From the NCBI GenBank assembly GCA_017303975.1, contig JAFLBG010000034.1, positions 1-43,005 of the forward strand: 43,005 nucleotides of DNA, written 5' to 3'. Below, piece after piece: positions 14,186-34,217 of the stretch. The notes under the pieces are model-generated. The model saw only the letters and a program-made list of their open reading frames with translations, searched no databases and was not told where the DNA came from. Numbering within the stretch: position 1 is the stretch's first letter; every line of letters begins with the position of its first letter. This DNA is from Bacteroidota bacterium (lineage in GTDB: Bacteria > Bacteroidota > Bacteroidia > JAFLBG01). Position numbers and translations under genes: made by a program.

Positions 14186-15433
14186 ATGCGTCATTATAAA
14201 AAAAGCTTTCTAACACTCTGTCTCCTAGTATTGTCAATATTTTCAACTACTACTGCCTTTGCGCAGCCTGACGGAGCCAAACTATTCAAACAAAATTGTG
14301 CAACCTGTCATCGGCTAGATGATAAAAAACTTACAGGCCCCGGCTTGAAAGGCGTTGCAGATCGTGTGCCAAAGCCGGCCGATGAATGGTTATTCAAATG
14401 GGTAAAAAATAACGACAAACTTCGTGCAAGCGGAGATGCCTATGCCAACAAGGTTTTCAACGATTTTGGTGGTTCGGCTATGACTGTTTTCGAATACCTA
14501 AGTGATGATGAAATAAAAGCAGTAATTGCATATTTTAAAAATCCTCCTGTAGAGGTAGCCCCTACAGCTCCTGTTGCCGGTGCGACAAGCGATGCTACCG
14601 AAAAAAAATCAGAAGGATTAAATCCCACCCTACCACTTATCATTATTGCGGTTTTCTTAGTTATTCTTGCTGCTGTATTGCGCGGTGTAAAAAAATCACT
14701 AAAAAATGTATTAAACGAAAAAGAAGGAAAAGGCGCTGATGCAGACTTAACAGTTTGGCAAGAGCTTGTACTTTGGATGAATGCCAACAGAACAAAAGTT
14801 GCAGTTGTAATTTTATTTTTAATTGGTTGGGGTGGAAAATTAGCATGGGATGGAATGATGGGTATAGGAATTTACCAAGGTTACAAACCGGAGCAGCCAA
14901 TTGCGTTCTCTCATAAAATTCATGCCGGAGATAACGGAATCAATTGTGTGTATTGCCACTCTTATGTTGAAAAGAGCCGTCACGCAGGTATTCCATCTGT
15001 AAATATTTGTATGAACTGTCACCAAGGAATTGAAAAGGGGCCAAATACCGGTACTGCTGAAATAGCAAAAATATATGCTGCTGCAGGATGGAACACCGAA
15101 ACGCAAGCATACGATAAGCCACAATCTCCTATAAAGTGGATTAAAGTTCACAACCTACCCGATTTCGTATATTTCAGCCACCAACAACACGTAGTAGTTG
15201 GTAAGCAAGAATGTACTACTTGTCACGGAGAAGTAAAAGAAATGACTGTTGCACAGCAGCACGCTCCACTTACAATGGCTTGGTGTGTTGATTGTCACAG
15301 AAAAACGGAAGTAGCTATGGCTAACAATCCTTACTACGAAGATTTGCACAAAAAATTAGCCGAAAAGTACAAAGGCCAAAAAATTACTGTTGATAAGATG
15401 GGCGGCATAGAGTGTGCTAAATGTCATTACTAA
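14186..15433 (+). CDS. actA: Alternative complex III subunit A, multiheme cytochrome c
   Basis: A 415-aa periplasmic/membrane cytochrome of the menaquinol:cytochrome c oxidoreductase ACIII. After a signal peptide (to about residue 26) there is a monoheme cytochrome c domain with CATCH at 38-42, then two hydrophobic segments (about 149-165 and 204-219), then the multiheme domain with five CxxCH sites at C254, C275, C343, C367 and C410. That gives six heme c sites in all, one more than the pentaheme core known for ActA, because of the N-terminal cytochrome fusion. It receives electrons from the ActB clusters and passes them towards the oxidase. It is the first gene of the eight-gene operon; actB follows after 28 bp. 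Confidence 0.93.
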   Translation: MRHYKKSFLTLCLLVLSIFSTTTAFAQPDGAKLFKQNCATCHRLDDKKLTGPGLKGVADRVPKPADEWLFKWVKNNDKLRASGDAYANKVFNDFGGSAMTVFEYLSDDEIKAVIAYFKNPPVEVAPTAPVAGATSDATEKKSEGLNPTLPLIIIAVFLVILAAVLRGVKKSLKNVLNEKEGKGADADLTVWQELVLWMNANRTKVAVVILFLIGWGGKLAWDGMMGIGIYQGYKPEQPIAFSHKIHAGDNGINCVYCHSYVEKSRHAGIPSVNICMNCHQGIEKGPNTGTAEIAKIYAAAGWNTETQAYDKPQSPIKWIKVHNLPDFVYFSHQQHVVVGKQECTTCHGEVKEMTVAQQHAPLTMAWCVDCHRKTEVAMANNPYYEDLHKKLAEKYKGQKITVDKMGGIECAKCHY

Positions 15434-15461
15434 TCAAAAATTAAAAGGAAACGCTTAATTT

Positions 15462-18400
15462 ATGAGCACAAAAAAATACTGGAAAGGTTTAGAAGAACTA
15501 GCCAATACACCTGAATTCCAAAAGTCGGCACAAAACGAATTTGCTGAATCGATTCCTGTTGAAGACTTTCTTCAAAATGATTCGTTAGACAAAACGTCAA
15601 CAAGTCGCAGAGACTTTTTAAAGTACTTAGGATTCAGCGTTACTGCTGCATCTTTGGCTGCTTGCGAAACTCCTGTTACAAAAGCCGTACCTTATGTGGT
15701 AAAACCCGAAGAGATTACTCCGGGTGTTGCTAATTGGTATGCTTCTACTTATTTCGATGGCAGCGATTACGCAAGTATTTTAGTTAAAACTCGCGAAGGT
15801 CGTCCAATTAAAATTGAAGGAAATAAATTATCCAAAATAACTAGAGGAGGAACAAATGCACGTATTCAAGCATCTGTTTTGTCTTTATACGATTCTGCTA
15901 GAATTACTGCACCTTACGCAAAAGGGGCTCCTAGTACTTGGGATACTGTTGATAAAGAAATTTCCGAGAAATTAGCATCCTCAAGCGCAATAAGAATTCT
16001 TACTTCTACAATCATCAGCCCTTCTACAAAAGCTGTTATTGAAGAATTTAAAGCCAAACATCCTTCTGCAAAACATGTTACCTACGATGCTGTTTCTTAT
16101 TCTGCTTTAATAAAAGCAAACTGGCACAGTTTCGACAAAGGTGTTGTGCCTACTTATAATTTCGAAAAAGCAAATGTGATAGTAAGTGTTGGTGCCGATT
16201 TTTTAGGTACCTGGCTTTCTCCAATTGAATTTTCTAAACAATATGCTATAAATAGAAAAGTTGGTTCCAAGAAAAAGGAAATGTCTAAACATTACCAATT
16301 CGAATCAATTCTTTCGCTTTCCGGTAGTAATGCTGATAAGCGTTTCCCAATTAAACCTTCTCAAACAGGCTTGATTGTTCTTAACTTATATAATGCTGTC
16401 GCTAAATTAGCCGGTGTTGTGGGTGTTGGCTCTGCTGCATCTCAACATGATGCAGAGATTGCAAAAATTGCAAAACATTTGTTGGAGAATAAAGGAAAGT
16501 CTCTAGTAGTTTGTGGCGCAAATGATGTTGCAATTCAGTTTGCAGTTAATTCTATAAATTCTTTATTGGGTAATTATAGCAAAACAATCGATTTAGAAAA
16601 TTATTCTAACCTTAAACAAGGAGATGACGAGCGTTTTGCCGACTTTGTAAAAGAAATGAAAGATGGAAAGGTAGATGCTCTTTTTGTTTATAACGCAAAT
16701 CCAGTGTATAATACTTCTGCGTCTTTGGCTTTTAGTGAGGCGATGAAGAAAGTAAAATTAAAAGTTTCTTTTGGAGATAGAGTAGACGAAACATCCGAAC
16801 TGTGTGATTATGTGTGTCCAGATCATCACTATTTGGAATCTTGGAACGATGCAAATCCTTCAAAAGCACAATTTAGTTTACAACAACCAACAATCAATCC
16901 AATTTTTTCAAAACCTAAATACGAAGGCACACGCTCTGCTCAAGAGTCTTTGTTAAAATGGTCTGGAAATAATTCGGATTATTTATCCTATATCAAAAAG
17001 CATTGGTCTTCTCACGTATTCCCAATGCAAGGTAAACATATGATGTTTACTGAGTTTTGGAATAACTCATTGCACGATGGTGTAGTTGAAATTGGGTTTG
17101 GAAAACCGGAGAATGCTCCAAATGTTGTAGCAGATTCTACTGCATCTGTTGGAATAGTAGAGAAAGTAAAAGAAATTTTAGGAAAGGATGAAAAGCAAAC
17201 TTCGGAAGAAGTTAAAGATACCAACAGAATGTCTATTAATGATGCTTCTGCAGCTATTTCCAAATCCGCTAAAGGTGGAAATTGGGAAGTAGTGTTGTAC
17301 GAGAAAGTATCAATGGGCAATGGTAATCAAGCCAACAATCCATGGTTACAAGAAATGCCTGATCCAATATCAAAAGTTACATGGGATAATTACATAACCA
17401 TGAATCCTATTGATATGAAAGGCAAGTACAATTTGTTGGAACGTTACAACCAAATGGAAGATAAGGCTGATGTTGCAAAAATAACTGTAAACGGAACAAC
17501 AATCGAACTTCCTGTATTTCCTCAACCTGGTCAAGCATTAGGAACCGTAGGTGTTGCATTGGGTTATGGTAGAACAAAGGCTGGCAAATGTGCCGATAAC
17601 GTTGGTAAGAATGCGTTTACACTTGTTGGATATTCAAATTCGACATTTAATTATAATTTAACAGCAGAACTAAGCGAAAAAACTGGCGAGTTATATCAGT
17701 TGGCTTGTACACAAACCCACCATACCATGATGGGTAGATCGATTGTAAAAGAAACAGATTTAACTACGTTTGCTACACAACCTAAACAAGTTTGGAATCA
17801 TTCAGAAATGATTTCTACACATAAAGGTGCTAAACCAGTTAGTGAAGTTAACTTGTGGGCTGATCACGATAAATTAGGTCACAGATGGGGATTGACAATC
17901 GACTTAAACTCTTGTATTGGCTGTGGATCTTGTATTGTAAGCTGTAACGCTGAAAACAATGTGCCTGTTGTAGGAAAAGAAGAAGTTCGCAGAAGCCGTG
18001 AAATGCACTGGATGCGTATCGATAGATACTATACAAGTGACATGACCAAGGAAAAAGCAGAGGAAGAACATGTAGGTGCAATTGATATGTATCTAAAAAT
18101 GGAAAATCCAACTGCCGAAAATCCTAAAGTTGTTTTCCAACCTGTAATGTGTCAACACTGTAATCATGCACCTTGCGAGACTGTTTGTCCTGTATTGGCT
18201 ACAAATCATAGTTCTGAAGGTTTAAACCAAATGACCTATAACCGTTGTGTTGGTACTAGATATTGTGCAAACAACTGTCCGTATAAAGTAAGACGATTTA
18301 ACTGGTTTGAATACGATAGAAACCATCGTTTTACCGGAATTAATCCATCTCAAGACGATTTGGGTAGAATGGTTTTAAATCCAGATGTAACAGTGCGTTC

Positions 18401-18758
18401 AAGAGGAGTAATGGAAAAATGTAGCATGTGTGTGCAACGTGTACAGGAAGGAAAATTGAATGCAAAAAAACAGAATAGAAAATTGGGCGATGGAGATTTT
18501 ACTACAGCATGTGCACAATCTTGTCCTACAGATGCAATTACTTTTGGTGATTTGAATAATTCGGAAAGTGTGGTTGCTCAGTTATTCCAAGAAGATAGAA
18601 GCTATTTCCTATTGGAAGAAGTTGGTATTAAACCTTCTGTATCTTACTTGGTAAAAGTAAGAAATGAGGAGCCTTCTGAAATTGCTGCATCTCACGGAGG
18701 TCATGGTAATCATGGCGAGGAGAAGCATGAAGAGAAAAAAGAAAAAGCGCATAGCTAG
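15462..18758 (+). CDS. actB: Alternative complex III subunit B, Tat-exported molybdopterin-like/iron-sulfur protein
   Basis: A 1098-aa fusion of a molybdopterin-oxidoreductase-like domain (about 70-750) with a ferredoxin domain. An unusually placed twin-arginine signal (SRRDFLK, residues 48-54, after a 47-residue leader) is followed by a lipobox LAAC (C68), so it should be Tat-exported and lipid-anchored. Iron-sulfur cysteines form four sets: C818/C821/C824/C828, C897/C900/C905/C909, C929/C935/C939 and C987/C990/C1017/C1021. The set with three cysteines in its group fits a [3Fe-4S] site. In characterised ACIII the molybdopterin-like part carries no cofactor. The C-terminus is His-rich. It relays electrons from quinol oxidised at the membrane to ActA. 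Confidence 0.95.
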   Translation: MSTKKYWKGLEELANTPEFQKSAQNEFAESIPVEDFLQNDSLDKTSTSRRDFLKYLGFSVTAASLAACETPVTKAVPYVVKPEEITPGVANWYASTYFDGSDYASILVKTREGRPIKIEGNKLSKITRGGTNARIQASVLSLYDSARITAPYAKGAPSTWDTVDKEISEKLASSSAIRILTSTIISPSTKAVIEEFKAKHPSAKHVTYDAVSYSALIKANWHSFDKGVVPTYNFEKANVIVSVGADFLGTWLSPIEFSKQYAINRKVGSKKKEMSKHYQFESILSLSGSNADKRFPIKPSQTGLIVLNLYNAVAKLAGVVGVGSAASQHDAEIAKIAKHLLENKGKSLVVCGANDVAIQFAVNSINSLLGNYSKTIDLENYSNLKQGDDERFADFVKEMKDGKVDALFVYNANPVYNTSASLAFSEAMKKVKLKVSFGDRVDETSELCDYVCPDHHYLESWNDANPSKAQFSLQQPTINPIFSKPKYEGTRSAQESLLKWSGNNSDYLSYIKKHWSSHVFPMQGKHMMFTEFWNNSLHDGVVEIGFGKPENAPNVVADSTASVGIVEKVKEILGKDEKQTSEEVKDTNRMSINDASAAISKSAKGGNWEVVLYEKVSMGNGNQANNPWLQEMPDPISKVTWDNYITMNPIDMKGKYNLLERYNQMEDKADVAKITVNGTTIELPVFPQPGQALGTVGVALGYGRTKAGKCADNVGKNAFTLVGYSNSTFNYNLTAELSEKTGELYQLACTQTHHTMMGRSIVKETDLTTFATQPKQVWNHSEMISTHKGAKPVSEVNLWADHDKLGHRWGLTIDLNSCIGCGSCIVSCNAENNVPVVGKEEVRRSREMHWMRIDRYYTSDMTKEKAEEEHVGAIDMYLKMENPTAENPKVVFQPVMCQHCNHAPCETVCPVLATNHSSEGLNQMTYNRCVGTRYCANNCPYKVRRFNWFEYDRNHRFTGINPSQDDLGRMVLNPDVTVRSRGVMEKCSMCVQRVQEGKLNAKKQNRKLGDGDFTTACAQSCPTDAITFGDLNNSESVVAQLFQEDRSYFLLEEVGIKPSVSYLVKVRNEEPSEIAASHGGHGNHGEEKHEEKKEKAHS

Positions 18759-18803
18759 TTAATAGAATTTAACTTATTTAGAACTTAATATTAATAATAT
18801 TTT

Positions 18804-20198
18804 ATGCATCAGGAATCCGCAATTAGAGAACCGCTAATTTTAGGTGATGACGTAACGTACGGAAAAATTACCGCAGACATTGCAAAACCTATCGAGGGGA
18901 AAGCTAATAAGTGGTGGTACGTTTGTTTTGGTATTGCAATGGCAGCCTTCCTTTGGGGATTTGGCTGTATTTGCTATTTTATCGGTACCGGAATTGGAGC
19001 TTGGGGAGCAAACAAAACAGTAGGTTGGGCTTGGGATATAACCAACTTTGTTTGGTGGATTGGTATTGGTCACGCAGGTACCTTGATTTCTGCGGTGTTG
19101 TTATTATTCCGTCAAAAATGGAGAATGGCAATAAACCGTTCTGCAGAAGCAATGACAATTTTTGCCGTAATTTGTGCCGCGTTATTTGTTACACTCCACA
19201 CCGGTCGCCCATGGTTAGATTATTGGTTGTTTCCGCTTCCAAATCAGTTTGGTTCCTTATGGACAAATTTTAACTCACCACTTTTGTGGGACGTATTTGC
19301 AGTTAGTACATACTTCTCCGTATCATTAGTATTTTGGTATTTAGGCTTAATTCCTGACTTTGCCATGTTAAGAGATAGAATGACAAAACCATTGGCAAAA
19401 AAAATATATGGAATTATGAGTTTTGGATGGAGTGGTAGAGCGAGAGACTGGACAAGATACGAAGAGGTATCTCTTGTATTAGCCGGTTTATCAACACCTC
19501 TTGTGTTCTCTGTTCACTCTATTGTAAGTATGGACTTTGCTACTTCTATCGTACCTGGATGGCATACAACAATTTTCCCTCCTTACTTCGTAGCGGGAGC
19601 CGTTTTCTCAGGATTTGCAATGGTTTTAACACTTCTTATCATCTGTAGAAAAGTATTAAATCTTGAAAATTATATTACGTTAAAACACATCGAATACATG
19701 AACATTGTAATCATTGTTACTGGTTCGATAGTAGGTGTTGCTTATTTAACAGAACTGTTTGTGGCTTGGTATTCCGGTGTTGAGTATGAACAATATGCTT
19801 TCTTAAATAGAGCTACGGGGCCTTATTGGTGGTCTTATTGGGGAATGATGACGTGTAACGTTATTTCACCTCAGTTATTTTGGTTCAAAAAAATTAGAAC
19901 GAGCATCATTGCAACATTTATATTGTCAATTGTGGTAAATATTGGAATGTGGTTCGAACGTTTTGTAATTATTGTTACTTCTATTCATAGAGACTTTTTA
20001 CCATCTAGTTGGAGTATGTATTCTCCTACTTATATTGAAATTGGATTCTTTATCGGAACAATAGGATTTTTCTTTGTAATATTTTTGTTGTTTGCTCGTG
20101 TGTTCCCTGTTATTGCACAGAGTGAATTAAAAACTATTATGAAGAGTTCTTCAGAGAAGTATAAAAAACTTCATAAAGAAAATAATCATCATCACTAA
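18804..20198 (+). CDS. actC: Alternative complex III subunit C, NrfD/PsrC-like quinol-site membrane protein
   Basis: A 464-aa membrane protein of the NrfD/PsrC family with about ten hydrophobic segments starting at WWYVCFGIAMAAFLWGFGC (residue 37). In ACIII this subunit, next to ActB, forms the menaquinol-oxidising site. Recognisable family elements are WIGIGHAGTLISAVLLLF and TLHTGRPW near 130-140. It ends in a short His tail (NNHHH). It starts 45 bp after actB and is followed by actD after 19 bp. Confidence 0.94.
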   Translation: MHQESAIREPLILGDDVTYGKITADIAKPIEGKANKWWYVCFGIAMAAFLWGFGCICYFIGTGIGAWGANKTVGWAWDITNFVWWIGIGHAGTLISAVLLLFRQKWRMAINRSAEAMTIFAVICAALFVTLHTGRPWLDYWLFPLPNQFGSLWTNFNSPLLWDVFAVSTYFSVSLVFWYLGLIPDFAMLRDRMTKPLAKKIYGIMSFGWSGRARDWTRYEEVSLVLAGLSTPLVFSVHSIVSMDFATSIVPGWHTTIFPPYFVAGAVFSGFAMVLTLLIICRKVLNLENYITLKHIEYMNIVIIVTGSIVGVAYLTELFVAWYSGVEYEQYAFLNRATGPYWWSYWGMMTCNVISPQLFWFKKIRTSIIATFILSIVVNIGMWFERFVIIVTSIHRDFLPSSWSMYSPTYIEIGFFIGTIGFFFVIFLLFARVFPVIAQSELKTIMKSSSEKYKKLHKENNHHH

Positions 20199-20217
20199 TT
20201 ATTGACTAACTAGTTTT

Positions 20218-20736
20218 ATGAGTAAAAAAATTATACATGGAATTTACGATGATGACGACCAATTAAAAGTTGGTGCAAGAAAAATCGTTTCCAGTGGCTT
20301 TAAAGTTAAAGAAGTGTTTTCTCCATTTCCAATTCATGGTATTGATCCTATTATTGGAATTCCAAGAACGCGAATTGCTATTGCCGCATTTATGTGGGGT
20401 ATAACAGGTACTTGCTTGGCAACTCTAATGATGTGGTACATGATGATTTCTGATTGGCCTACCGATGTGGGTGGAAAACCAAACTGGTCGTATATATACA
20501 ATCTACCTGCGTTTATTCCAATTGCATTTGAATCAACAGTGCTTTGTGCTGCGCATTTAATGTTTTGGACATTTGCATTTCGTAGTTGGATATTGCCTGG
20601 CGTAAGTGCTAAAAATCCAGATCCTAGAACAACGGACAATATGTTTTTGATGTTGTTAGAAGTAAAAGAAGAAGATGCTGATAGAGTGGTGGGAATGCTT
20701 AAAGAAACAGGAGCTTTGGAAGTTAATGTAAAATAG
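20218..20736 (+). CDS. actD: Alternative complex III subunit D (DUF3341)
   Basis: A 172-aa DUF3341 protein. The N-terminal cytoplasmic domain (to about 55) leads into two transmembrane hairpin segments, IAIAAFMWGITGTCLATLMM (about 44-65) and IPIAFESTVLCAAHLMFWTF (about 100-120), then a short soluble tail containing DPRTTDNMFLMLLEV. This is the usual ActD build; it packs against ActC in the complex and carries no cofactor motif. It sits in the expected place between actC and actE. Confidence 0.93.
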   Translation: MSKKIIHGIYDDDDQLKVGARKIVSSGFKVKEVFSPFPIHGIDPIIGIPRTRIAIAAFMWGITGTCLATLMMWYMMISDWPTDVGGKPNWSYIYNLPAFIPIAFESTVLCAAHLMFWTFAFRSWILPGVSAKNPDPRTTDNMFLMLLEVKEEDADRVVGMLKETGALEVNVK

Positions 20737-20749
20737 GAGAGCGAGTAGT

Positions 20750-20865
20750 TAGTATGAAGTACCATGTATTAAGTACAATGAAAAAAAGAAATTATGAATA
20801 CCAATAAAAAAATAATTACGCTAAAAAAATTATTCTTCCTACTTAGTACTTTGTACTTTGTATTG
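20750..20865 (+). other. Long-range complementary AGTAC-rich arms around the actE start
   Basis: RNA arms 20750-20775 and 20840-20865 can pair over 26 positions with two mismatches and several G-U pairs. The actE ATG (20794) lies in the 64-nt loop. Both arms are built from AGTAC/GTAC-like words; the left is intergenic and the right encodes the hydrophobic part of the ActE signal peptide. Whether the structure forms is unknown. Confidence 0.4.
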
Positions 20866-21432
20866 TCTTCTTGTAAAAGCGATCCAAACAGTCCTGGAAT
20901 TGAGTATATGCCTGACATGTACAGAGGCATTTCTTATGAGGCCAATTTGGAGAATATTGTTACCGGAGATACTATTGCAACTAATTTAATGCCTCCAAAA
21001 GGCTCTATTGCTAGAGGTTTCATGCCCTATGCGTATGGGAATGACACTGCAGGCTATGCAAATTCAGGCAGGTATTTAAGAAATCCTATTGCAGCTTCTC
21101 CCGAAATTTTAGCTGAAGGAGAAATCCTTTATAGTAAATATTGTGTTCATTGCCATGGTGTAGAAGGAAAAGGAGATGGTGCTGTTTCTTCTAAACTACC
21201 AGGTGCTCCACCGTCCTATTCCGGAGCGTTGGCTAGTTTGCCAGAAGGTAAAATATTTCATTCCATAACATATGGAAAAGGTTTGATGGGACAACATGCA
21301 TCTCAACTATCTCAAGAGGAAAGATGGAAGTTGGTACATTATGTTCAAAAGCTTCAAAAATTGGGAGCTCCAGTTGCTACGGCTAGTGCGGCTTCTTCAG
21401 ATACAACAAAAACAACTACTGATAAAAAATAA
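20794..21432 (+). CDS. actE: Alternative complex III subunit E, lipoprotein cytochrome c
   Basis: A 212-aa monoheme cytochrome c. The N-terminus is a lipoprotein signal ending LSSC, so the mature protein should be lipid-anchored in the periplasm. The heme site is CVHCH at 117-121, and the distal Met is probably the one in GKGLMGQHASQL. Residues 30-60 contain MPDMYRGISYEANLEN, the conserved ActE lead-in. The last 20 residues are Ala/Ser/Thr-rich and low complexity. It is separated from actF by only 6 bp. Confidence 0.93.
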   Translation: MNTNKKIITLKKLFFLLSTLYFVLSSCKSDPNSPGIEYMPDMYRGISYEANLENIVTGDTIATNLMPPKGSIARGFMPYAYGNDTAGYANSGRYLRNPIAASPEILAEGEILYSKYCVHCHGVEGKGDGAVSSKLPGAPPSYSGALASLPEGKIFHSITYGKGLMGQHASQLSQEERWKLVHYVQKLQKLGAPVATASAASSDTTKTTTDKK

Positions 21433-21438
21433 TAGTTT

Positions 21439-22644
21439 ATGAATTTATCTTACGAGTTTACACAACGTTCAAAAAAAATAACCTACACTTTGATGGGTGT
21501 TGGTCTTGTTGGTGTTATTCTGGGTTTGGTATTGGCTCATGATGAGCATCTTGGTCAACGCTTATGGGCTAATGTGTTGATGAATAGTTTTTTCTTTTTA
21601 GGAATTTCTGTTGCTGCCTTATTCTTTTGGACATTGCAATATGCTACAGAATCAGCGTACGCAGTGGCTGTGAAACGTGTTTATGAGGCAATTGCTGGGT
21701 ATTTACCTGTTGGTGCTATCACCTTAATCATCGTTTTATTAGCGAGTTCTTTAGGTTTTAATCATATATATCACTGGATGGCACACGGAATATCTGATCC
21801 TACCAGCGAGCATTATGATGAAGTTATTGCGGGAAAATCAGGGTATTTGAATTTGCCTTTCTTTTGGATAAGAACTCTAGCGTATTTGGGTATTTGGTAC
21901 TTATTCTACAAAGGCTTCAGAAAAAGATCTTTGCAAGAAGATTTGGAAGGAGGATTAGATATACACTGGAAAAATGTTAAGATGGCCGCCATATTTTTAG
22001 TTTTATACGGAGTGACATCTTCAACTTCTGCTTGGGATTGGTTAATGTCTATCGATACGCATTGGTATAGCACTATGTTTGGATGGTATATTTTTTCCGG
22101 TACTTGGTGCAGCTCTATGATTATGTTGATTTTGTTTATTCTTTTCTTGAAAAGCAAAGGGTATTTGCAACAAGTAAACGACAGTCATATTCACGATATT
22201 GGGAAATGGATGTTCGCAACGAGCTTTCTATGGAGCTATTTGTGGTTTTGTCAATTTATGCTTATTTGGTATGCTAATATTCCTGAGGAGATCACATACT
22301 TCCAAACTCGTTTCGACCTTTACAAGCCAGTTATGTGGACAACTTTCTTTGTAAATTTTGCTCTACCAATGATATTTTTAATTGCTAGAGATGCAAAAAG
22401 AAATCCTAAATTTTTGGCTGTAGTAGGATGCATTATTTTCTTCTTCCACTGGGTTGATTTATTTCAAATTGTTATGCCGGGAACTGTTGGAGCACATTGG
22501 TATTTCTTTAATCCATTAGAGTTGGGGATGTTTATGATGTTTTTAGGTTTGTTTTTGTTTGTGGTTCACACCCAACTTACAAAAGCTCCTTTGATGGTAA
22601 AAAATCATCCTTATTTGGACGAGAGTTTACACCATGAATTTTAA
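21439..22644 (+). CDS. actF: Alternative complex III subunit F, quinol oxidoreductase membrane subunit
   Basis: A 401-aa polytopic membrane protein with about ten hydrophobic segments, related to ActC but without the NrfD motifs. Conserved-looking charged and polar residues lie in membrane regions, for example LVLAHDEHLGQRLWANVLMN (about 30-50) and STSAWDWLMSIDTHWYSTMF (about 197-216). In ACIII ActF is proposed to carry a proton path parallel to ActC. Position and size match the family. Confidence 0.93.
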   Translation: MNLSYEFTQRSKKITYTLMGVGLVGVILGLVLAHDEHLGQRLWANVLMNSFFFLGISVAALFFWTLQYATESAYAVAVKRVYEAIAGYLPVGAITLIIVLLASSLGFNHIYHWMAHGISDPTSEHYDEVIAGKSGYLNLPFFWIRTLAYLGIWYLFYKGFRKRSLQEDLEGGLDIHWKNVKMAAIFLVLYGVTSSTSAWDWLMSIDTHWYSTMFGWYIFSGTWCSSMIMLILFILFLKSKGYLQQVNDSHIHDIGKWMFATSFLWSYLWFCQFMLIWYANIPEEITYFQTRFDLYKPVMWTTFFVNFALPMIFLIARDAKRNPKFLAVVGCIIFFFHWVDLFQIVMPGTVGAHWYFFNPLELGMFMMFLGLFLFVVHTQLTKAPLMVKNHPYLDESLHHEF

Positions 22645-22677
22645 TTTGTACTAAAATTTAGAATAAAAAAATAACGT

Positions 22678-23694
22678 ATGGTAAAATTTCTAATTTACGT
22701 TGTAGTTGTACTTGCTGTGTATGCAATTGCTCAGCTAGTGAGAGTTTTTGAAATAGCTTCAGCTTTAAAAGGCTCTAAACCGCATGAAATAAATGATACT
22801 GACAATAAGAACCAAGGACGAATGATGTTGTTGTTTTGGTTGGCATTTGTAGTATTTTGTATATGGGAGGTAATGGAGCATGGTCATAAAATATTACCTA
22901 AAGCAGCATCTGATGTGGGTGCTGATATAGACTGGTTAATGTGGCTTAATATGTCAATAATATCTGTTGTTTTCCTTATAACCAATACACTACTATTTTA
23001 TTTTGCCTATAAATACCAAGGTAGCAAATCAAGAACAGCAACGTTTTATCCGCATAATAATAAATTAGAGTTGATTTGGACTGTTGTTCCTGCAGTGGTT
23101 CTTTTTGTAATTATCTTTTTAGGAATTAAGAAATGGAATAACATTACAGATGTTCCTTCAAACGATGCTATTGTAATTGAACTATATGCAAAACAGTTTG
23201 ATTGGACTGCTCGTTATGCAGGTAAAGACAATGTGTTAGGAAAATCTAATTATAAATTGATTTCAGGTTCTAACTCCTTGGGTATGGATTCTACAGATAA
23301 GGCAGGATGGGATGATATGTTAGTAAGAAATGAGTTTCATATTCCTAAAGGCAAGCAAATATCATTTAGAATGAACTCTCGAGATATTATACATAGTGCA
23401 TATTTTCCTCATTTCCGTCAGCAAATGAATGCGGTACCTGGTATGACTACTGAAATGCATTTTGTTCCAACAATGACTACAAAAGAAATGCGAGCTGAAA
23501 CGAAGAACGATAAATTCGATTATGTTTTGTTGTGTAACAAAATATGTGGTGCAAGTCATTACAATATGCAAATGATAGTTGTTGTTGACGAAGAAAAGGA
23601 ATACGCAGAATGGTTGTCAAAACAAAAGCCTTTTTTTACAAAAACTGTTTTAACTAGTAACGAAGAGAATAAAAAAATAGCTCTTAATAATTAA
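22678..23694 (+). CDS. coxB: Cytochrome c oxidase subunit II (CuA)
   Basis: A 338-aa subunit II. The extended N-terminus has an extra transmembrane segment (residues 2-20) before the usual two (about 49-65 and 87-108), a layout common in Bacteroidota. The cupredoxin domain holds a full CuA set: H239 in DIIHSAYFPHF, then C286, C290, H294 and M297 in CNKICGASHYNM. A Lys replaces the usual Glu whose backbone carbonyl binds copper, so the site should still work. It takes electrons from the ACIII hemes and passes them to subunit I. coxA follows after 11 bp. Confidence 0.95.
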   Translation: MVKFLIYVVVVLAVYAIAQLVRVFEIASALKGSKPHEINDTDNKNQGRMMLLFWLAFVVFCIWEVMEHGHKILPKAASDVGADIDWLMWLNMSIISVVFLITNTLLFYFAYKYQGSKSRTATFYPHNNKLELIWTVVPAVVLFVIIFLGIKKWNNITDVPSNDAIVIELYAKQFDWTARYAGKDNVLGKSNYKLISGSNSLGMDSTDKAGWDDMLVRNEFHIPKGKQISFRMNSRDIIHSAYFPHFRQQMNAVPGMTTEMHFVPTMTTKEMRAETKNDKFDYVLLCNKICGASHYNMQMIVVVDEEKEYAEWLSKQKPFFTKTVLTSNEENKKIALNN

Positions 23695-23705
23695 TAAAAA
23701 AATTT

Positions 23706-25523
23706 ATGGCAGCTCATACACATAGCCACGATTCGCACGCTCATGCTACTCCTCATCATCACGATGAACACGAGCACCACGACACTTTTTTGACTAAGTA
23801 TGTTTTTAGTCAAGACCATAAAATGATTTCAAAGCAGTTTTTGATTACTGCTATTTTTATGGGCTTGGTAGCAATGACAATGTCTATTATTTTCCGTTTG
23901 CAACTTGCATGGCCTGAGCAAAAATTTGCATTTATTAATTGGATGCTTGGGGATAAATGGGGAAAGGATGGAATTTTAGATCCAAACATGTATTTAGCGT
24001 TGGTTACTATCCACGGTACTATAATGGTGTTTTTCCTTTTAACAGGAGGATTGAGCGGTACCTTTGCAAATCTTTTAATTCCGTATCAAATTGGAGCTAG
24101 GGATATGGCATCTGGCTTTATGAACATGCTGTCTTATTGGTTCTTTTTACTATCGAGTGTGATAATGATTTTTTCGTTATTTATTGAAACGGGTCCAGCA
24201 TCTGCAGGATGGACTGTTTATCCTCCATTAAGTGCGTTGCCTCAAGCAATGCCTGGTTCTGGGTTAGGTATGACCTTGTGGTTGGTAAGTATGACATTCT
24301 TTGTGGTTTCATCTCTATTAGGCGGTTTAAATTACATCGTTACAATTGTAAACCTTAGAACAAAAGGAATGTCGATGACAAGATTGCCATTGACAATTTG
24401 GGCATTGCTTATTACAGCTATATTGGGGGTATTATCTTTCCCTGTATTGTTCTCGGCTGTATTACTATTGATTTTTGATAGAAGTTTCGGAACAAGTTTT
24501 TATTTGTCTGATATTTATATTGGAGGTCAAGCGTTAGAACAAACAGGCGGTAGCCCTATTTTATACCAACATTTATTTTGGTTTTTAGGACATCCTGAGG
24601 TTTATATCGTATTGTTACCTGCATTGGGTATGGCATCTGAAATTATATCCATAAACTCAAGAAAACCCATTTTTGGTTACAGAGCCATGGTTGGTTCTAT
24701 GTTAGCAATTGGTTTCTTGTCATTTATTGTTTGGGGGCATCACATGTTCTTAACCGGTATGAATCCGTTTTTAGGTTCGGTGTTTGTATTTACAACTTTA
24801 CTAATTGCAATACCGTCTGCAGTTAAGGCGTTTAACTATATTACTACTTTGTGGAAGGGTAATATTCAGTTTACTCCTGCAATGATGTTTTCCATAGGGT
24901 TGGTATCTACTTTTATTTCTGGTGGTGTAACAGGTATTATCCTAGCAGATTCTACGTTAGACATTCCTGTACATGATACATATTTTGTTGTAGCGCATTT
25001 CCATATTGTAATGGGGTTGTCAGCGGTGTTGGGTATGTTTGCAGGTGTATATCATTGGTTCCCAAAAATGTTTTTGAGAATGATGAACAAAAAACTAGGT
25101 TATTTACATTTTTGGATAACATTTATTTGTGCATATGGGGTGTTTTTTCCAATGCATTTCCTTGGATTAGCAGGTGTTCCAAGACGTTATTATTCCAATA
25201 CAGCTTTCCCAATGTTTGATAATTTGGTTGATATAAACGTTTTAGTTACAGTATTTGCGATAATAGGTTCTCTTGCACAATTCATCTTCTTGTTTAATTT
25301 TTTCTATAGTATTTTTAGAGGGCCTAAGGCTACAGAGAACCCTTGGAAGTCTAATACATTAGAGTGGACTAATGGTGTTGGCCATGTTCATGGAAATTGG
25401 CATGGAGCGCTTCCTGTAGTTCAACGTTGGGCGTATGATTATAGTAAGCCTGGCAAATCGGAAGATTTTGTGCCTCAGACTGTTCCGTTGGATGAAAACG
25501 AACAAGACGAAGGAGGACATTAA
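23706..25523 (+). CDS. coxA: Cytochrome c oxidase subunit I (heme a / heme a3-CuB)
   Basis: A 605-aa, twelve-helix heme-copper oxidase core that reduces oxygen to water and pumps protons. Ligands are visible: H103 (TIHGTIM) and H433 for heme a, H296 with the cross-linked Y300 (GHPEVY) and H345/H346 (WGHHMF) for CuB, and H431 (VAHFH) for heme a3. E298 in GHPEVY marks an A1-type (D-channel) enzyme. The N-terminus is a His-rich cytoplasmic tail, 11 His in the first 25 residues. It is the last gene of the operon; a strong hairpin follows 23 bp after the stop. Subunits III and IV are not nearby. Confidence 0.96.
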   Translation: MAAHTHSHDSHAHATPHHHDEHEHHDTFLTKYVFSQDHKMISKQFLITAIFMGLVAMTMSIIFRLQLAWPEQKFAFINWMLGDKWGKDGILDPNMYLALVTIHGTIMVFFLLTGGLSGTFANLLIPYQIGARDMASGFMNMLSYWFFLLSSVIMIFSLFIETGPASAGWTVYPPLSALPQAMPGSGLGMTLWLVSMTFFVVSSLLGGLNYIVTIVNLRTKGMSMTRLPLTIWALLITAILGVLSFPVLFSAVLLLIFDRSFGTSFYLSDIYIGGQALEQTGGSPILYQHLFWFLGHPEVYIVLLPALGMASEIISINSRKPIFGYRAMVGSMLAIGFLSFIVWGHHMFLTGMNPFLGSVFVFTTLLIAIPSAVKAFNYITTLWKGNIQFTPAMMFSIGLVSTFISGGVTGIILADSTLDIPVHDTYFVVAHFHIVMGLSAVLGMFAGVYHWFPKMFLRMMNKKLGYLHFWITFICAYGVFFPMHFLGLAGVPRRYYSNTAFPMFDNLVDINVLVTVFAIIGSLAQFIFLFNFFYSIFRGPKATENPWKSNTLEWTNGVGHVHGNWHGALPVVQRWAYDYSKPGKSEDFVPQTVPLDENEQDEGGH

Positions 25524-28665: not shown

Positions 28666-30603
28666 ATGAAGAAGTTAATACTTATAATAAGCGTATTTTT
28701 TATCGAGTATGAATTGAATGCGCAAGGATTTGGAATTGGAGCCAGTAGTCCAAGTGAAATTTTGCACTTAAAGAAAAATGGTGATGTGGCGGTTCGATTT
28801 CAGGGGGCCACTGCGGGTTCCTCTTCTTTGGGTGCTCAAGCTCCTACTGCTAATACAACAGGTGTGTTGGGCAGCAAAACATGGTCTAGCGGAGGGAACG
28901 TATATAGCAACAATGCATCTTATGCAACCGTAGCAACAGGAACATCGGAGTATTTGGTGGCAAAGACATTTGATTTTTCCGCTATTCCGGCTGGTGCCAC
29001 TATTGATGGAATACAAGTAAGCGTTGATAGAAGTAGGACAGATGCTACGGATGTCGCATTATTGGATGCATGGGGATTTGATTCTGATGGTACTTATTCA
29101 TATGCCGTAAGCGCTGGAACTAATCGTTGTTTAATTCTTATTGCCGGTATGGGACATGATGCAGGAGATAGAGATTTAACTGCTGTTACGTATGGTGGCG
29201 TGAGTATGACAGAGGTTACGTCTGCTGCAACAAGTAATGGAGAGGAAACGCATTTGGAAATTTGGTATTTAGGAGAGGCTGGAATAGCAGCAGCTACATC
29301 AAGCAATTTTGCATTTACGTGGTCAGGAGGATTTGATGCCCAAATTTATGCAGTGGCTTCTTTTCAGTATGTAGATCAAGCTAGCCCGGTTGCTGATTTT
29401 GAAACTATTGGAAGTACTTCTACTGCAACGCTAACGTTTTCATCTACTTTAGCTGTAGAGGATGGTGATATGGTAGTATTAGGAGCCCTTGCCGGTGATG
29501 ATACAGATGATAACATAGATGGCGATTTTACAGATAATAATTTTACGTGTGCGGGGTATACAGAGGGGGGGGATATAAGTGTTGACAACGGTAATAATCC
29601 GAATAGCGAAGAGCTTCAGATGGCTTGTTATACAAAAGCTATATCTGCCAATGGAACAGAGAATCCTTCTGTGATTACTAATGTTGCCGCATTGAGAAAT
29701 TTTAATATGGTTGGTTTAGTTTTAAATAGTGTTCGTACCGTTTATGATAACTCTATAAAATTGGTAAAAGCAGATGGTACAATTGCCGGTACTGATAAAG
29801 CGGCTACCTCTACAAACTGGCCAACGGCAGATGCTACTGCTACTTATGGCGGAAGTTCCGATTTGTGGGGTATTTCTTGGACAGAGGCTGATGTTAAAGA
29901 TGCAGATTTTGGAGTGGCAATTTCTGTGCTTGCTTACAATGCAACTGCACAAATAGATTATATTGGAATTACTGTGTATTATACTCCATCCGGAAGTTTT
30001 AGTAATTATACAATGGGGATTGACCAAACCGATGGATATTTTAAGTTGTCTGGTTCTTCTTCATTGGGAACTAGCGATTATGTTACTGTTAATACCTCCG
30101 GAAATATGGGTATTAATTGTACTGCACCTACTCAAAAATTATATGTTGATGGCAATATCTATGCAACAGGCTCTGTATTGGGTTCTCAAGCTGCGTGTAG
30201 TGATAGACGATGGAAGACAGATTTTAAACCTATTGAAGGTGCTCTAAAAACGGTATTAGGCTTAGATGGTATTTATTACAACTGGAAATATAAAGAGTTC
30301 CCTGCAAAAAAATTTACCGAGCAACGTCAAATAGGGTTTATTGCCCAAGAGGTAGAGAAAGTGTATCCGGAGCTTATTTTTACAGACAACGAAGGATATA
30401 AATATTTGAATTATGCTAGCATGACCCCAGTATTAGTTGAGGCTATAAAGGAACAGCAACTTATGATCATCGATTTACAAAAGAAGTTGGATGTAGCTTC
30501 GGCTAAAGCAAGTAAGGTTGATGCATTAGAAGGCAGGTTAAATGAGTTGCAGAAATCCATTCAGGAGTTAAACAGCAAGCAAAATTTAGAAGCAAAAAAA
30601 TAA
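28666..30603 (+). CDS. Exported peptidase-S74 (endosialidase chaperone) protein with nested domain
   Basis: A 645-aa protein with a short signal peptide (to NAQ, residue 20). Residues 64-130 and 361-440 read as two halves of one beta-sandwich module, split by an inserted beta-rich domain at about 131-360 (YGGVSMTEV, IWYLGEAGIAAAT, AVEDGDMVVLGALAG). The C-terminus is an S74 intramolecular chaperone: SDRRWK with S512 and K517, IGFIAQEVEKVYPEL at 556-570 and LNYASMTPVLVEAIKEQQ, then a coiled coil. In tail-fibre homologues this domain assists trimerisation and cleaves itself off. No phage genes are nearby, so it is probably a cell-surface protein. The gene contains a G8 tract at 29565-29572. Confidence 0.83.
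   Translation: MKKLILIISVFFIEYELNAQGFGIGASSPSEILHLKKNGDVAVRFQGATAGSSSLGAQAPTANTTGVLGSKTWSSGGNVYSNNASYATVATGTSEYLVAKTFDFSAIPAGATIDGIQVSVDRSRTDATDVALLDAWGFDSDGTYSYAVSAGTNRCLILIAGMGHDAGDRDLTAVTYGGVSMTEVTSAATSNGEETHLEIWYLGEAGIAAATSSNFAFTWSGGFDAQIYAVASFQYVDQASPVADFETIGSTSTATLTFSSTLAVEDGDMVVLGALAGDDTDDNIDGDFTDNNFTCAGYTEGGDISVDNGNNPNSEELQMACYTKAISANGTENPSVITNVAALRNFNMVGLVLNSVRTVYDNSIKLVKADGTIAGTDKAATSTNWPTADATATYGGSSDLWGISWTEADVKDADFGVAISVLAYNATAQIDYIGITVYYTPSGSFSNYTMGIDQTDGYFKLSGSSSLGTSDYVTVNTSGNMGINCTAPTQKLYVDGNIYATGSVLGSQAACSDRRWKTDFKPIEGALKTVLGLDGIYYNWKYKEFPAKKFTEQRQIGFIAQEVEKVYPELIFTDNEGYKYLNYASMTPVLVEAIKEQQLMIIDLQKKLDVASAKASKVDALEGRLNELQKSIQELNSKQNLEAKK
29565..29572 (+). repeat. G8 homopolymer inside the S74 gene
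   Basis: Eight consecutive G residues span GAG-GGG-GGG-GAT (Glu-Gly-Gly-Asp) in an otherwise AT-rich gene. A one-base slip would frameshift the protein before the S74 domain. Confidence 0.9.
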
Positions 30604-30621
30604 GTATTATTCTGTGAAATC

Positions 30622-32163
30622 GTGTTTAAAAGAACATTCTATATTGCCATTTTTACATTAGGGAGTATTATTTTCTCAGGAACTCTTTTTGCACAGCTTA
30701 TAGCTTATAATGATGGATTGACGGTTGTTACAGTTACTACTTCTACCAATATTTATATAGATGGTAGTTACATGAGTAAGACCAACGGAACAGATGGAAT
30801 TATTACAAACGAAGGTTCGATTTACATAACACAAGATTTTTATAATTACAACACTTCTTCATCTGCATTTAGCGGTGCTGCGGGGGGAGCTGTTTATTTA
30901 AATGGTTCAACAGCAAGTCAGAATATACTAGGTACAACAGATCCAGCTTTTTACAACTTATATATTCAAAATACCTATACTACCACACCTCAAATTGTTT
31001 TAGGGTTAAACACCAGTGTTACTAATATTTTAGAAATGTCTTCTGGTACAATTAATTTAAATTCGAAAACACTTACGTTAGGAACTTCTATACTTAATAC
31101 GGGAACATTAAGTAGGACGGGAGGTTGGGCGTATGGTGGTAGTTTTAAAAGATGGGTTACCACTTCGGGTATATCATCCGGAAGTTCTGCAGGATTGTAT
31201 CCTTTGGGTGGTAGTTCCGATTATAGGCCATTTTCGTTGTACACATCATCAAGTCCATCTGTTGGAGGATTTGTTACCGTTAATCATAATTATGTAGGAG
31301 GCCGAACTGTTGTAAACTTTGCAGATGGGGCGTTTAATATCGATGCAAGAAGTAATTCCTATTGGGCTGTAAGTACAGGTGGTGGTCTGTCTGGTGGTAC
31401 TTACGGAATTTATGCCGGAGGTACCGGATTTGGGTTGGTGCAAACTGAATCGGATTTAAGGTTGGTACAGGCAAGCAGTGTTATAGGTACGGCAGGAACG
31501 AATACCGGCACATATTCTTCCCCGGAAGTAAATAGAACAGGCATTTCATTATTTAACTTGGCTAATAATTTTTATATAGGAACAACAGATGTTGCTAATT
31601 CTCCATTGCCTATTGAGCTGCTTAGTTTCGATGCAAAATTGAATAGTGATGTAGTTGATGTTGAGTGGGAAACTGCAACTGAGATTAATTGCGATTATTT
31701 TATTGTCGAGAAAACTATTGATGGAGATAATTTTGAGTTTGTAAGCAAAGTTGCCGGTGCAGGAAATAGTTTTTCTGTTCAAAAGTATTCAACTGTTGAT
31801 ACCAATCCATACGATGGAGTTTCTTATTATAGATTGAAACAAGTTGATTTTGATGGCTCTTTTACCTATTCAAATTTGGTTGCAGTAGAGGTGTTAATTA
31901 ATTCTGGATTTTCAGTATACCCCAATCCGTATATGAGCGGTAGTTTAAAAATAAAATTTGAGAGTGAGTTAGATAAAGAAGAGTTATTAGTAATTGTATA
32001 TAGCAATACGGGTGCCGAAATGTACTCCAAGGTAGTAGTTGTGAAAAAGGAAAATAATTATTTGGCAGTACTTGATTTGGAAAATCGTTTAGCACCCGGA
32101 CTATACCATATTGTTGGCGCCTCAAAGCATACTACAAAATCACAACGGTTGGTTATTTACTAA
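30622..32163 (+). CDS. Secreted protein with T9SS type A sorting domain
   Basis: A 513-aa secreted protein. It starts at GTG 30622, directly before a signal peptide (FKRTFYIAIFTLGSIIFSGT...FAQ), 18 bp after the S74 gene, so co-transcription is likely. The N-terminal half is repetitive beta-helix-like (SGTINLNSKTLTLG, TNEGSIYITQDFYNY). The region around residues 331-420 (PIELLSFDAKLNSDVVDVEW, YYRLKQVDFDGS) is the common spacer before sorting signals. The last 80 residues are a T9SS type A sorting domain with FSVYPNP and a final KSQRLVIY strand. Its stop codon overlaps the next minus-strand stop by 4 bp. Confidence 0.88.
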   Translation: MFKRTFYIAIFTLGSIIFSGTLFAQLIAYNDGLTVVTVTTSTNIYIDGSYMSKTNGTDGIITNEGSIYITQDFYNYNTSSSAFSGAAGGAVYLNGSTASQNILGTTDPAFYNLYIQNTYTTTPQIVLGLNTSVTNILEMSSGTINLNSKTLTLGTSILNTGTLSRTGGWAYGGSFKRWVTTSGISSGSSAGLYPLGGSSDYRPFSLYTSSSPSVGGFVTVNHNYVGGRTVVNFADGAFNIDARSNSYWAVSTGGGLSGGTYGIYAGGTGFGLVQTESDLRLVQASSVIGTAGTNTGTYSSPEVNRTGISLFNLANNFYIGTTDVANSPLPIELLSFDAKLNSDVVDVEWETATEINCDYFIVEKTIDGDNFEFVSKVAGAGNSFSVQKYSTVDTNPYDGVSYYRLKQVDFDGSFTYSNLVAVEVLINSGFSVYPNPYMSGSLKIKFESELDKEELLVIVYSNTGAEMYSKVVVVKKENNYLAVLDLENRLAPGLYHIVGASKHTTKSQRLVIY

Positions 32164-34217
32164 TCTAAAATAATTTTTCCTGTTGTATTTGTTTTGGAAC
32201 TCGAAAAGTTTATGAGATACATTCCAGATGAATTTAAGTCTAGCTTAATATCAATTCTATTTGTTCCTATTTTTGCCATGTGTTTAGTTTTATTTATCTC
32301 GCTGCCAACAATAGATACTAGTCTTATTTCTATTTCCTCTTGCTCCAAAGATGTATAAAAAACAGTAATTGAATTCGATTCTACACTGTGATAATATTTT
32401 AGAAAATTATTTTTTTCTATACCTGTAACACCAGTTATATTAATATCATCTAAGAAGAAATTATTTCCTCCTCCGTTTGTAAATTTAAATTTGAACAACA
32501 CATTATTTGAAGCTGTAAGCGGAGAAATATTTACAATCTGATTTTTCCATTGAGATGTATTTGAAGGGGTAAACGGATTGGTTTCAATAGCTGTTGTAGC
32601 TAGGGCGCTACCCGATTTAGTATAGCGTATGTTCCATGTTTGTCCGCAAGTAGTAGAAGAAAATATTTCCAATTTATCTGCGTCTGAACTTTGTATTTGT
32701 GCATATGCATATTTAAAAGTAAATGCAGGGCTTGACATGGAAGATATATCAATAGCAGGGCTGATAAGCTCTGTAGATTCTCCAAAAGAAGAAAAGTAAT
32801 TATCAATAAAAGCACTATTACTTCCAGAGTAAGCAACACTGTTTGTCTGATCCCACGTAATTGAATTTCCGATATTTACAATACTCCAGTCATTATTGGG
32901 AAGTATTCCTGATTCGTAACTTTCGAAAAAGGAACCGCTGTACGTTGCTGTTGTTGATAATACGTTTATATATCCTGTTTTTGTTGTTGTGTTTGCACCA
33001 ACATTGTTTGACACGGTAAGTGTAACAGAATATACTCCGGGTGAATTATAGATTACCGAAGGATTATTAATAGTTGATGTGTTGGGCGTTCCTCCGTCAA
33101 AATTCCATAGGTAAGAAGTTGGAGTTCCTCCCCAAGAAAGGTCTGTAAAGTTTATGGAATTTCCTTGACAGGTGTATTTTGTATTAGTTTTAAACTCAGC
33201 AATTGGTGCACAATTACTTGACGTGTTGGTGTATGTGCCTGTCGCTATAAGGTTGGAATATCCCCACAAATTATTTCTAAAGCCAATAGGGGAGTACAAC
33301 GCTGCATCCATTCTGTTTTTTTGTCCAGTTGTAAACATACGCGAGCAATAGGAGTATTCCATAAAATTTTGAACGTTGTCTACCAGATTGCCGCATGTTG
33401 CACCACTTGTGTTGCAATTAATCCAACCTTTGGTAGGAGGTGTGTCCGTTACAAAATCATCTCCACAGGCTACTCCCGGATTATTGGTACTTCCCCATGG
33501 ATGTAATAAATTAAAAAAATGTCCTACTTCGTGTGTAAGTATTCTTGATTTTGCATTATTGCTGGTGCCTATACTGCCAACGTAATCATGTAAAATTAGA
33601 ATGCCCTCGTTGTTAGCTGGTGTAGTTCCAGGTAAATAGGTATATCCTGCAACGCCAATAGATATGGAGTTTACAACCCAAATATTTAAATATTTCCAAG
33701 CAGGCCAACCATTTAATTTTGAATTGTCGTCTCCAATGTATGTTTCTAACGATGCTATTCTATTTATGCCATTCGTACAATTTCCATTTGGATCTTTTGT
33801 TGCAAGCCTAAATTCGATGGAACAATTAGCAATGTTGTTCTTAAATGCATTTACAACAAATGAAGTGTCTGAATTTTGCCTATTGAAATCTTCGTTTAAA
33901 ATTTGAAGTGCATCATATACTTGTGCGTCCGAAATATTTTCTATTCCATAATCGTGTATAATATGAACAACAACTGGAATAATAAAAGTGGAGTTTTGTT
34001 TATTGGCGAGATGGAAATTTTCGGTGAAATTTTCTAGCTGCTCTTGTTGTAAAAGTAACTCAGGATGTTTTAAAAACGACTGGCGGACCATTTCATCTGT
34101 TCCGCATACTTTTAAAGATTGCGCTAGGCTGATGGTAGCAAAAGTAAAGAATAGAAGCAGCAAATAAAGTCGTTGCACGTTATGTATCAGTTTAGTTGCC
34201 CAAAATTTCAATTGCAT
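32160..34217 (-). CDS. Secreted M43-type zinc metalloprotease with PKD and T9SS domains
   Basis: A 685-aa secreted protease. The catalytic domain carries HEVGHFFNLLH (zinc ligands H229, H233, H239; catalytic E230), VTDTPP and the Met-turn NFMEYSYC (M286), all features of pappalysin/cytophagalysin M43 enzymes. A PKD domain follows (about 340-420, SYLWNFDGGTP and PGVYSVTLTVSNN), then a MAM/jelly-roll-like region (DWSIVNIGN to FFLDDINITG) and a C-terminal T9SS sorting domain ending GKIILD. ATG 34217 overlaps tatD by 26 bp; GTG 34178 is an alternative giving a compact signal peptide (QRLYLLLLFFTFATISLA). It follows tatD on the same strand. Confidence 0.88.
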   Translation of the reverse strand: MQLKFWATKLIHNVQRLYLLLLFFTFATISLAQSLKVCGTDEMVRQSFLKHPELLLQQEQLENFTENFHLANKQNSTFIIPVVVHIIHDYGIENISDAQVYDALQILNEDFNRQNSDTSFVVNAFKNNIANCSIEFRLATKDPNGNCTNGINRIASLETYIGDDNSKLNGWPAWKYLNIWVVNSISIGVAGYTYLPGTTPANNEGILILHDYVGSIGTSNNAKSRILTHEVGHFFNLLHPWGSTNNPGVACGDDFVTDTPPTKGWINCNTSGATCGNLVDNVQNFMEYSYCSRMFTTGQKNRMDAALYSPIGFRNNLWGYSNLIATGTYTNTSSNCAPIAEFKTNTKYTCQGNSINFTDLSWGGTPTSYLWNFDGGTPNTSTINNPSVIYNSPGVYSVTLTVSNNVGANTTTKTGYINVLSTTATYSGSFFESYESGILPNNDWSIVNIGNSITWDQTNSVAYSGSNSAFIDNYFSSFGESTELISPAIDISSMSSPAFTFKYAYAQIQSSDADKLEIFSSTTCGQTWNIRYTKSGSALATTAIETNPFTPSNTSQWKNQIVNISPLTASNNVLFKFKFTNGGGNNFFLDDINITGVTGIEKNNFLKYYHSVESNSITVFYTSLEQEEIEIRLVSIVGSEINKTKHMAKIGTNRIDIKLDLNSSGMYLINFSSSKTNTTGKIILD

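Follow-up and report, generated by a model that had tools for sequence, protein, structure and literature searches.

A split module with an inserted beta domain in a bacterial S74 fibre gene and its apparently conserved T9SS-type partner

Domains of the Peptidase_S74 family (PF13884) are found in phage fibres and in MyRF, and S74 fibres of bacteria are already known as well. The closest described systems are the mosaic adhesive trimer (MAT) proteins of Bdellovibrio bacteriovorus, which PMC10769870 presents as bacterial, non-phage proteins with a signal peptide and a trimeric capping-loop stalk that ends in an S74 domain with an SDxxxK motif or in another tip. According to the same paper, a conserved beta domain of about 130 aa directly follows the signal peptide of MATs, and Bd3182 and its S782A form provide the precedent for trimerization and cleavage by an S74 domain. 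Here, we describe a fibre gene in a window of 43,005 nucleotides from a Bacteroidota bacterium (GenBank assembly GCA_017303975.1, contig JAFLBG010000034.1, positions 1 to 43,005 of the forward strand). Like the MATs as portrayed in that paper, the encoded protein is non-phage, carries an S74 domain with the SDxxxK motif and has a stalk that matches the MAT protein Bd2133 (PDB 8ond). It is shorter, however (645 aa compared to typically about 1,000 aa), and, unlike the MATs described there, carries a nested jelly-roll in its stalk and adjoins a T9SS-type partner gene. With the S74 family as a whole it shares a domain that scores over the cut-off and the Ser and Lys of SDxxxK, but it is encoded on a bacterial chromosome, begins with a probable signal peptide and is only predicted to be cleaved. 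As far as our literature searches go, neither the nested module nor the fibre-partner pair has been described, and these two elements are considered new. The open reading frame comprises a probable signal peptide, a stalk, half A of a module, an insert, half B, a second stalk and the S74 chaperone:

28666..30603, + strand: S74 fibre gene, 645 aa (open reading frame, Pfam)
28666..28725, + strand: probable signal peptide, residues 1-20 (by eye from MKKLILIISVFFIEYELNAQ)
28732..28764, + strand: first capping-loop-like motif of the stalk, residues 23-33, GIGASSPSEIL (self-made pattern modelled on the motif in PMC10769870)
28825..29052, + strand: half A of the split jelly-roll module, residues 54-129 (profile of uninterrupted copies)
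29047..29739, + strand: inserted beta domain, residues 128-358 (insert profile and structure model)
29734..29988, + strand: half B of the split module, residues 357-441 (profile of uninterrupted copies)
29989..30198, + strand: stalk, residues 442-511 (match to the Bd2133 stalk, PDB 8ond)
within this stalk, + strand: second capping-loop-like motif, residues 482-492 (self-made pattern)
30199..30600, + strand: S74 chaperone and coiled tail, residues 512-645 (PF13884)
30199-30201 and 30214-30216, + strand: codons of Ser512 and Lys517
30622..32163, + strand: partner gene for a beta-rich protein with a T9SS-type tail

The pattern that located both capping-loop-like motifs is looser than the printed consensus V-G-G/N-pi-x-x-P-x-x-x-L. 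The S74 domain is the only Pfam family that passes its cut-off in the fibre (residues 512-570; 61.8 bits compared to a cut-off of 22); three further families match far below their own cut-offs and NCBIfam yields no family match. In the genome search, PF13884 scores the fibre gene at 66.5 bits, which is the one S74 match in its own genome. The SDxxxK motif given for S74 in PMC10769870 reads SDRRWK here, and both S512 and K517 are invariant in all three nested S74 proteins. The earlier note had placed an S74 chaperone at the protein end and had named a missing Ser/Lys pair as an argument against its reading; both the domain and the pair are present. Searches with the whole fibre returned 19 PHROGs families at E 1, with tail fibres and further tail proteins at the top, and 11 PDB sequences at E 10, including 8ond, 6f45 (a phage long tail fibre) and 7dc3 (MyRF). 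The match to Bd2133 (sequence E 1.4e-10) is best at residues 446-503 and extends to two more stretches. On the basis of this kinship and of the behaviour known for S74 proteins (such as Bd3182 and its S782A form), we infer that the fibre probably trimerizes via its stalk and C-terminal S74 chaperone, which would cut itself off before Ser512; a location at the surface is likewise suggested by these relatives.

That the two flanks of the central beta-rich region form the halves of a single module had been proposed from the sequence (residues 64-130 and 361-440, with an insert of about 230 residues), and this split is confirmed. A profile built only from nine uninterrupted copies of the module yields two complementary matches in the fibre, i.e., residues 54-129 against model positions 7-89 (i-E 5.3e-14) and residues 357-441 against positions 88-174 (i-E 1.7e-25), while the insert profile, derived from alignment A3, covers residues 128-358 in between. 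The refined borders lie close to those first proposed, and the insert length agrees. When residues 52-128 and 355-445 are joined into one query, nine other, uninterrupted open reading frames match in one run across the junction, with the run beginning only at query positions 48 and 39 in L032 and L025, respectively. Three of these nine uninterrupted copies (L002, L003 and L004) are present in the window's own genome. The insert does not correspond to a known Pfam family (no match at E 10 in any of four members), and its best PDB match by sequence, an antibody chain at E 0.19, is regarded as noise. As a single-sequence query against 395 genomes of the phylum, the insert found no genome other than the window's own at E 1e-4; its profile reached relatives where the single sequence failed. 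A third level of nesting, with the whole module inside a split stalk unit, was also tested and is not claimed. A profile of 11 stalk units, all from fibres without the module, matches the second half of such a unit in the window protein, L005 and L006 (i-E 3.6e-7, 5.5e-9 and 7.7e-9), but the match to the first half is weak (i-E 0.022, 0.77 and 27).

Structure prediction is consistent with an insertion into a hairpin. In L002, the uninterrupted module is modelled as a single domain (pLDDT 85.5, pTM 0.85) with main strands 57-61, 72-83, 89-98 and 119-124, helix 136-140 and strands 145-152 and 162-173, in which a five-residue hairpin turn links strands 72-83 and 89-98. The model of the nested unit (window residues 46-446; pLDDT 76.3, pTM 0.69) comprises strands 52-55 and 67-81, the insert strands within 86-308, strands 313-322 and 345-351, helix 362-366 and strands 371-379 and 381-395, an order as in L002, with strands 67-81 and 313-322 matching strands 72-83 and 89-98 of the latter. 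The insertion therefore lies in the turn that joins two adjacent strands, and the insert would thus sit at the jelly-roll's edge, accessible for binding. Within half A, the first strands (residues 46-94) have a pLDDT below 50, so their pairing is not supported by the nested model. The fold alignment comprises seven nested rows only, as the uninterrupted modules misaligned and were left out. In structure comparisons, the L002 model resembles meprin MAM, CBM4-2, CBM15, CBM32 and gingipain adhesin domains (Z 8.3-9.8), only modestly above the best Z of 7-8 usually reached by models that have no clear match. The uninterrupted module thus appears to share its fold with these jelly-rolls, although Pfam matches nothing on the module in either the window protein or L002, and neither a ligand nor binding residues were found. 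The nested model reaches no Z as high as 8; residues of both flanks align weakly to single beta-sandwich domains such as 2gsy (Z 5.8) and 3nru (Z 5.2), and IBDV VP2 and Eph receptor domains occur in the match lists of both models. Foldseek gave no PDB match for the nested model at E 0.001; among viral models (BFVD), 54 reached the same threshold. Among the best 50 of these 54, many measure 200-260 aa and several are named as minor tail proteins, with target TM values of about 0.53-0.72 (e.g., 0.68 and 0.64 for minor tail proteins of the Mycobacterium phages Stubby and Tonenili and 0.72 for an unnamed Caudovirales protein). Judged by its length, the matched part of about 230 columns is probably the insert, which would then resemble phage minor tail proteins in predicted fold, at an identity of at most 20% among the matches listed.

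The nest is conserved beyond this genome. Searched with a profile built from seven nested proteins (A7), at least 53 of 395 genomes of the class gave a match at E 1e-6; all counts from this search are lower bounds. The 113 matches listed include at least nine full-length nested proteins from nine genomes, at least 36 places with half A only, at least 65 with half B only and at least three with the insert only. A half B match lies at -9 to 87 bp after 35 of the 36 half A matches, and for the remaining one (G000:C1) half B was found by another search. A scan of named genomes (26 loci in all) added three nests, L045, L046 and L051. Twelve distinct nested proteins are thus known. Clean two-piece module matches are seen in the window protein, L005, L045, L046, L051, L110, L113 (first piece at i-E 3.4e-4) and L114. 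In the other four (L006, L007, L112 and L115) the second match extends back into the insert, so the seam is less sharp there; the first match of L006 is below significance (i-E 0.49). Three of the twelve end in S74, eight in a T9SS-type end, defined as the part matched by the partner profile, and one (L051) is cut off at the edge of its stretch. The sorting-tail model passed its cut-off in both T9SS-type nests to which it was applied (L007 and L046). The insert also occurs alone near the N-terminus of the T9SS-type proteins L053, L057 and L058, and a Chloroflexi protein (L056, 2825-4576) carries the module, as a partial match, beside the insert domain rather than around it. In a tree of 40 rows, the three S74 nests form one clade (100/99) and eight of the nine others form another (100/99), with L051 apart on weak branches. 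A single clade of all 12 nests is not rejected (p-AU 0.341), nor is one of 11 without L051 (p-AU 0.481), but neither has tree support. We do not claim a single origin of the nest.

The partner gene starts 18 bp behind the fibre gene. The earlier note took this T9SS-sorted neighbour as context only; the gap is as described, and for the sorting tail the window copy scores 23.3 bits, below the Pfam cut-off of 27 and without an NCBIfam match, but all five homologues scanned pass that cut-off. A GldL gene over its cut-off in the same genome makes the presence of a T9SS likely. In G005 and G015, too, the nested S74 gene is immediately followed by a partner homologue. From the S74 side the link is rare: in the loci compared, a partner follows four of 30 distinct S74 open reading frames, and one of the 30 has no downstream sequence. 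For the view from the partner side, the 395 genomes were searched with a profile of five partners, which yielded at least 25 short homologues (frames of 460-600 aa), for which an upstream fibre was scored when a frame within 600 bp on the same strand matched the S74 profile or held a capping-loop-like motif. Among the matches listed, 13 of the 25 have such a fibre-like frame, eight with an S74 domain (G000, G005, G015:C37, G011, G528, G600, G451 and G584) and five with the motif only (G015:C68, G503, G474, G554 and G482, the last with a 159-aa frame in between). Five of the 13 (G000, G005, G015 twice and G011) were members of the profile with fibre neighbours known beforehand; without profile members, the count is eight of 20 listed. 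Four further homologues (G596, G724, G058 and G550) are possible cases only: the gene directly upstream encodes a protein of about 500 aa that looks beta-rich and in two cases has an Ice_binding domain, and the remaining eight of the 25 have neither. With the possible cases included, a fibre-like gene precedes 13 of the top 14 homologues and four of the lower 11. As a control, 31 other proteins with the module or the insert were taken, of which two were dropped for short upstream DNA; none of the remaining 29 has an S74 or motif frame upstream, even at a looser S74 threshold (1e-3 compared to 1e-5). Seen from the partner side, the link is strong, and the neighbour looks like a conserved partner.

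Several further observations concern this neighbourhood. The partner frame (30604-32163) is in frame with the fibre stop without a stop in between, such that readthrough would fuse both proteins; the same arrangement occurs in L105, L186 and L103, with a chance expectation of one in three. Ice_binding (PF11999) proteins lie directly upstream of partner homologues in L179 (1623-3140) and L180 (2078-3727). In L103 (2230-5445), a capping-loop-like protein with no S74 match stands directly before a partner homologue that matches more weakly (E 8e-10) and just over its N-terminal part. Next to the window's partner gene, a M43 peptidase with PKD is encoded (32160-34217) that has sub-threshold MAM and T9SS tail matches; MAM domains are also among those that resemble the uninterrupted module in predicted fold. 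Farther upstream, multihaem cytochrome, iron-sulphur, NrfD and cytochrome oxidase genes stand in a row (14186-25523) that we take to be arranged as in alternative complex III and oxidase operons.

Two alternatives concern the origin of the flanks and of the whole gene. It is extremely improbable that the flanks are two unrelated small domains that resemble a split module by chance. Half A is a weak query when used alone (E 8e-9 to 7e-4 outside its closest relative) and its first strands are poorly modelled, but the profile of uninterrupted copies gives complementary matches, half B follows within 87 bp of nearly every place with half A only (35 of 36 in the 395 genomes) and the uninterrupted copy is predicted as a single domain. 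Nor do we think it at all likely that the gene is the leftover tail fibre of a decayed prophage, even though the PHROGs matches are mostly tail fibres, S74 and stalk are common to phage fibres and both nested parts are found in viral contigs. Besides the fibre, the window holds 43 frames of at least 100 aa, many of which overlap real genes on the opposite strand; Pfam found no phage family in the 22 that were scanned, as the earlier note had stated, but thiolase, OmpA, cytochromes, NrfD, cytochrome oxidase, MlaE, ABC transporter, TatD, TPR and other families, with some frames without any match. The N-terminus MKKLILIISVFFIEYELNAQ fits the signal peptide proposed there (by eye), and three other families have genomes with the same fibre-partner order. 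The module is common in IMG/VR contigs, with at least 158 frames and at least 111 distinct cores in the 167 viral loci covered, but none of the 111 cores has the insert or S74 in the same frame; relatives of the insert lie in eight viral loci, and of 50,697 phage records four give a match, half B being matched in two and the insert in the other two. The suggestion that the fibre was borrowed from tail-fibre modules thus holds in so far as tail fibres share the S74 domain and the stalk and relatives of each nested part occur in phages, but the nested pair was seen in bacterial genomes only, and eight of 12 nested proteins have a T9SS-type end instead of an S74 match. One viral contig (IMGVR_UViG_3300048834_000341; L321, 1-2067) encodes half A at residues 10-70, a near-complete module at 80-252, half B at 252-339 and another half B at 341-425, which can be read either as one module inserted into another at this same seam or as tandem copies from which halves were lost.

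Two other alternatives concern function. There is an appreciable, albeit minor, chance that the T9SS gene is a common neighbour of surface genes without a functional link to the fibre. The scarcity of partners behind S74 frames, the eight partner homologues without even a possible fibre gene and the five positives from within the search profile speak for this, whereas 13 of 25, or eight of 20 without profile members, compared to zero of 29 controls speaks against it. Less likely still is a role as an enzyme or as a structural component of the periplasm, with S74 as just a folding aid. S74-type domains do occur in non-adhesins such as MyRF (PDB 7dc3), but Pfam, NCBIfam and PHROGs revealed no enzyme family, and by its fold class the split module belongs with binding modules.

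In our view, the interpretation that best accounts for the locus, and a reasonably probable one, is a secreted, trimeric, self-cutting surface adhesin or glycan receptor with a nested jelly-roll, displayed together with its T9SS partner. The interpretation advanced in the earlier note is partly supported, namely as regards the split module, the S74 dyad and the non-phage setting. The fibre would be exported by Sec and, once trimerized and relieved of its chaperone, would have a mid-stalk jelly-roll of the type that binds carbohydrates, in which a beta domain of 230 aa replaces a hairpin turn. The T9SS-sorted partner may help to display it at the surface. The fibre itself has no Por_Secre_tail match at E 1 (Pfam, NCBIfam), and it could stay in the periplasm. 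For the MAT fibres, the main text of PMC10769870 does not contain the word 'secretion'.

Beyond this locus, we tentatively propose that Bacteroidota possess a two-gene cassette for surface display, made up of a trimeric fibre that lacks a secretion tail and a T9SS-sorted beta protein as escort or anchor. It is conceivable, with similar reservation, that the cassette fibre has exchangeable tips (S74-cut, other beta or ice-binding-like) and a stalk jelly-roll whose hairpin accepts whole domains. If true, the cassette might be the T9SS counterpart of the Bdellovibrio MAT system, a parallel that we regard as speculative for now. The nested module offers a checkable case of how adhesive fibres gain binding parts, namely by taking up a whole domain in a fixed hairpin of an older one. 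This nest has been kept over long divergence and occurs both in S74 fibres and in T9SS-tailed proteins, and distant relatives with the same arrangement indicate that adhesive fibres may be built from swappable parts. If the partner is necessary, the pair would hint at how trimeric, self-cutting fibres without a T9SS tail reach the cell surface.
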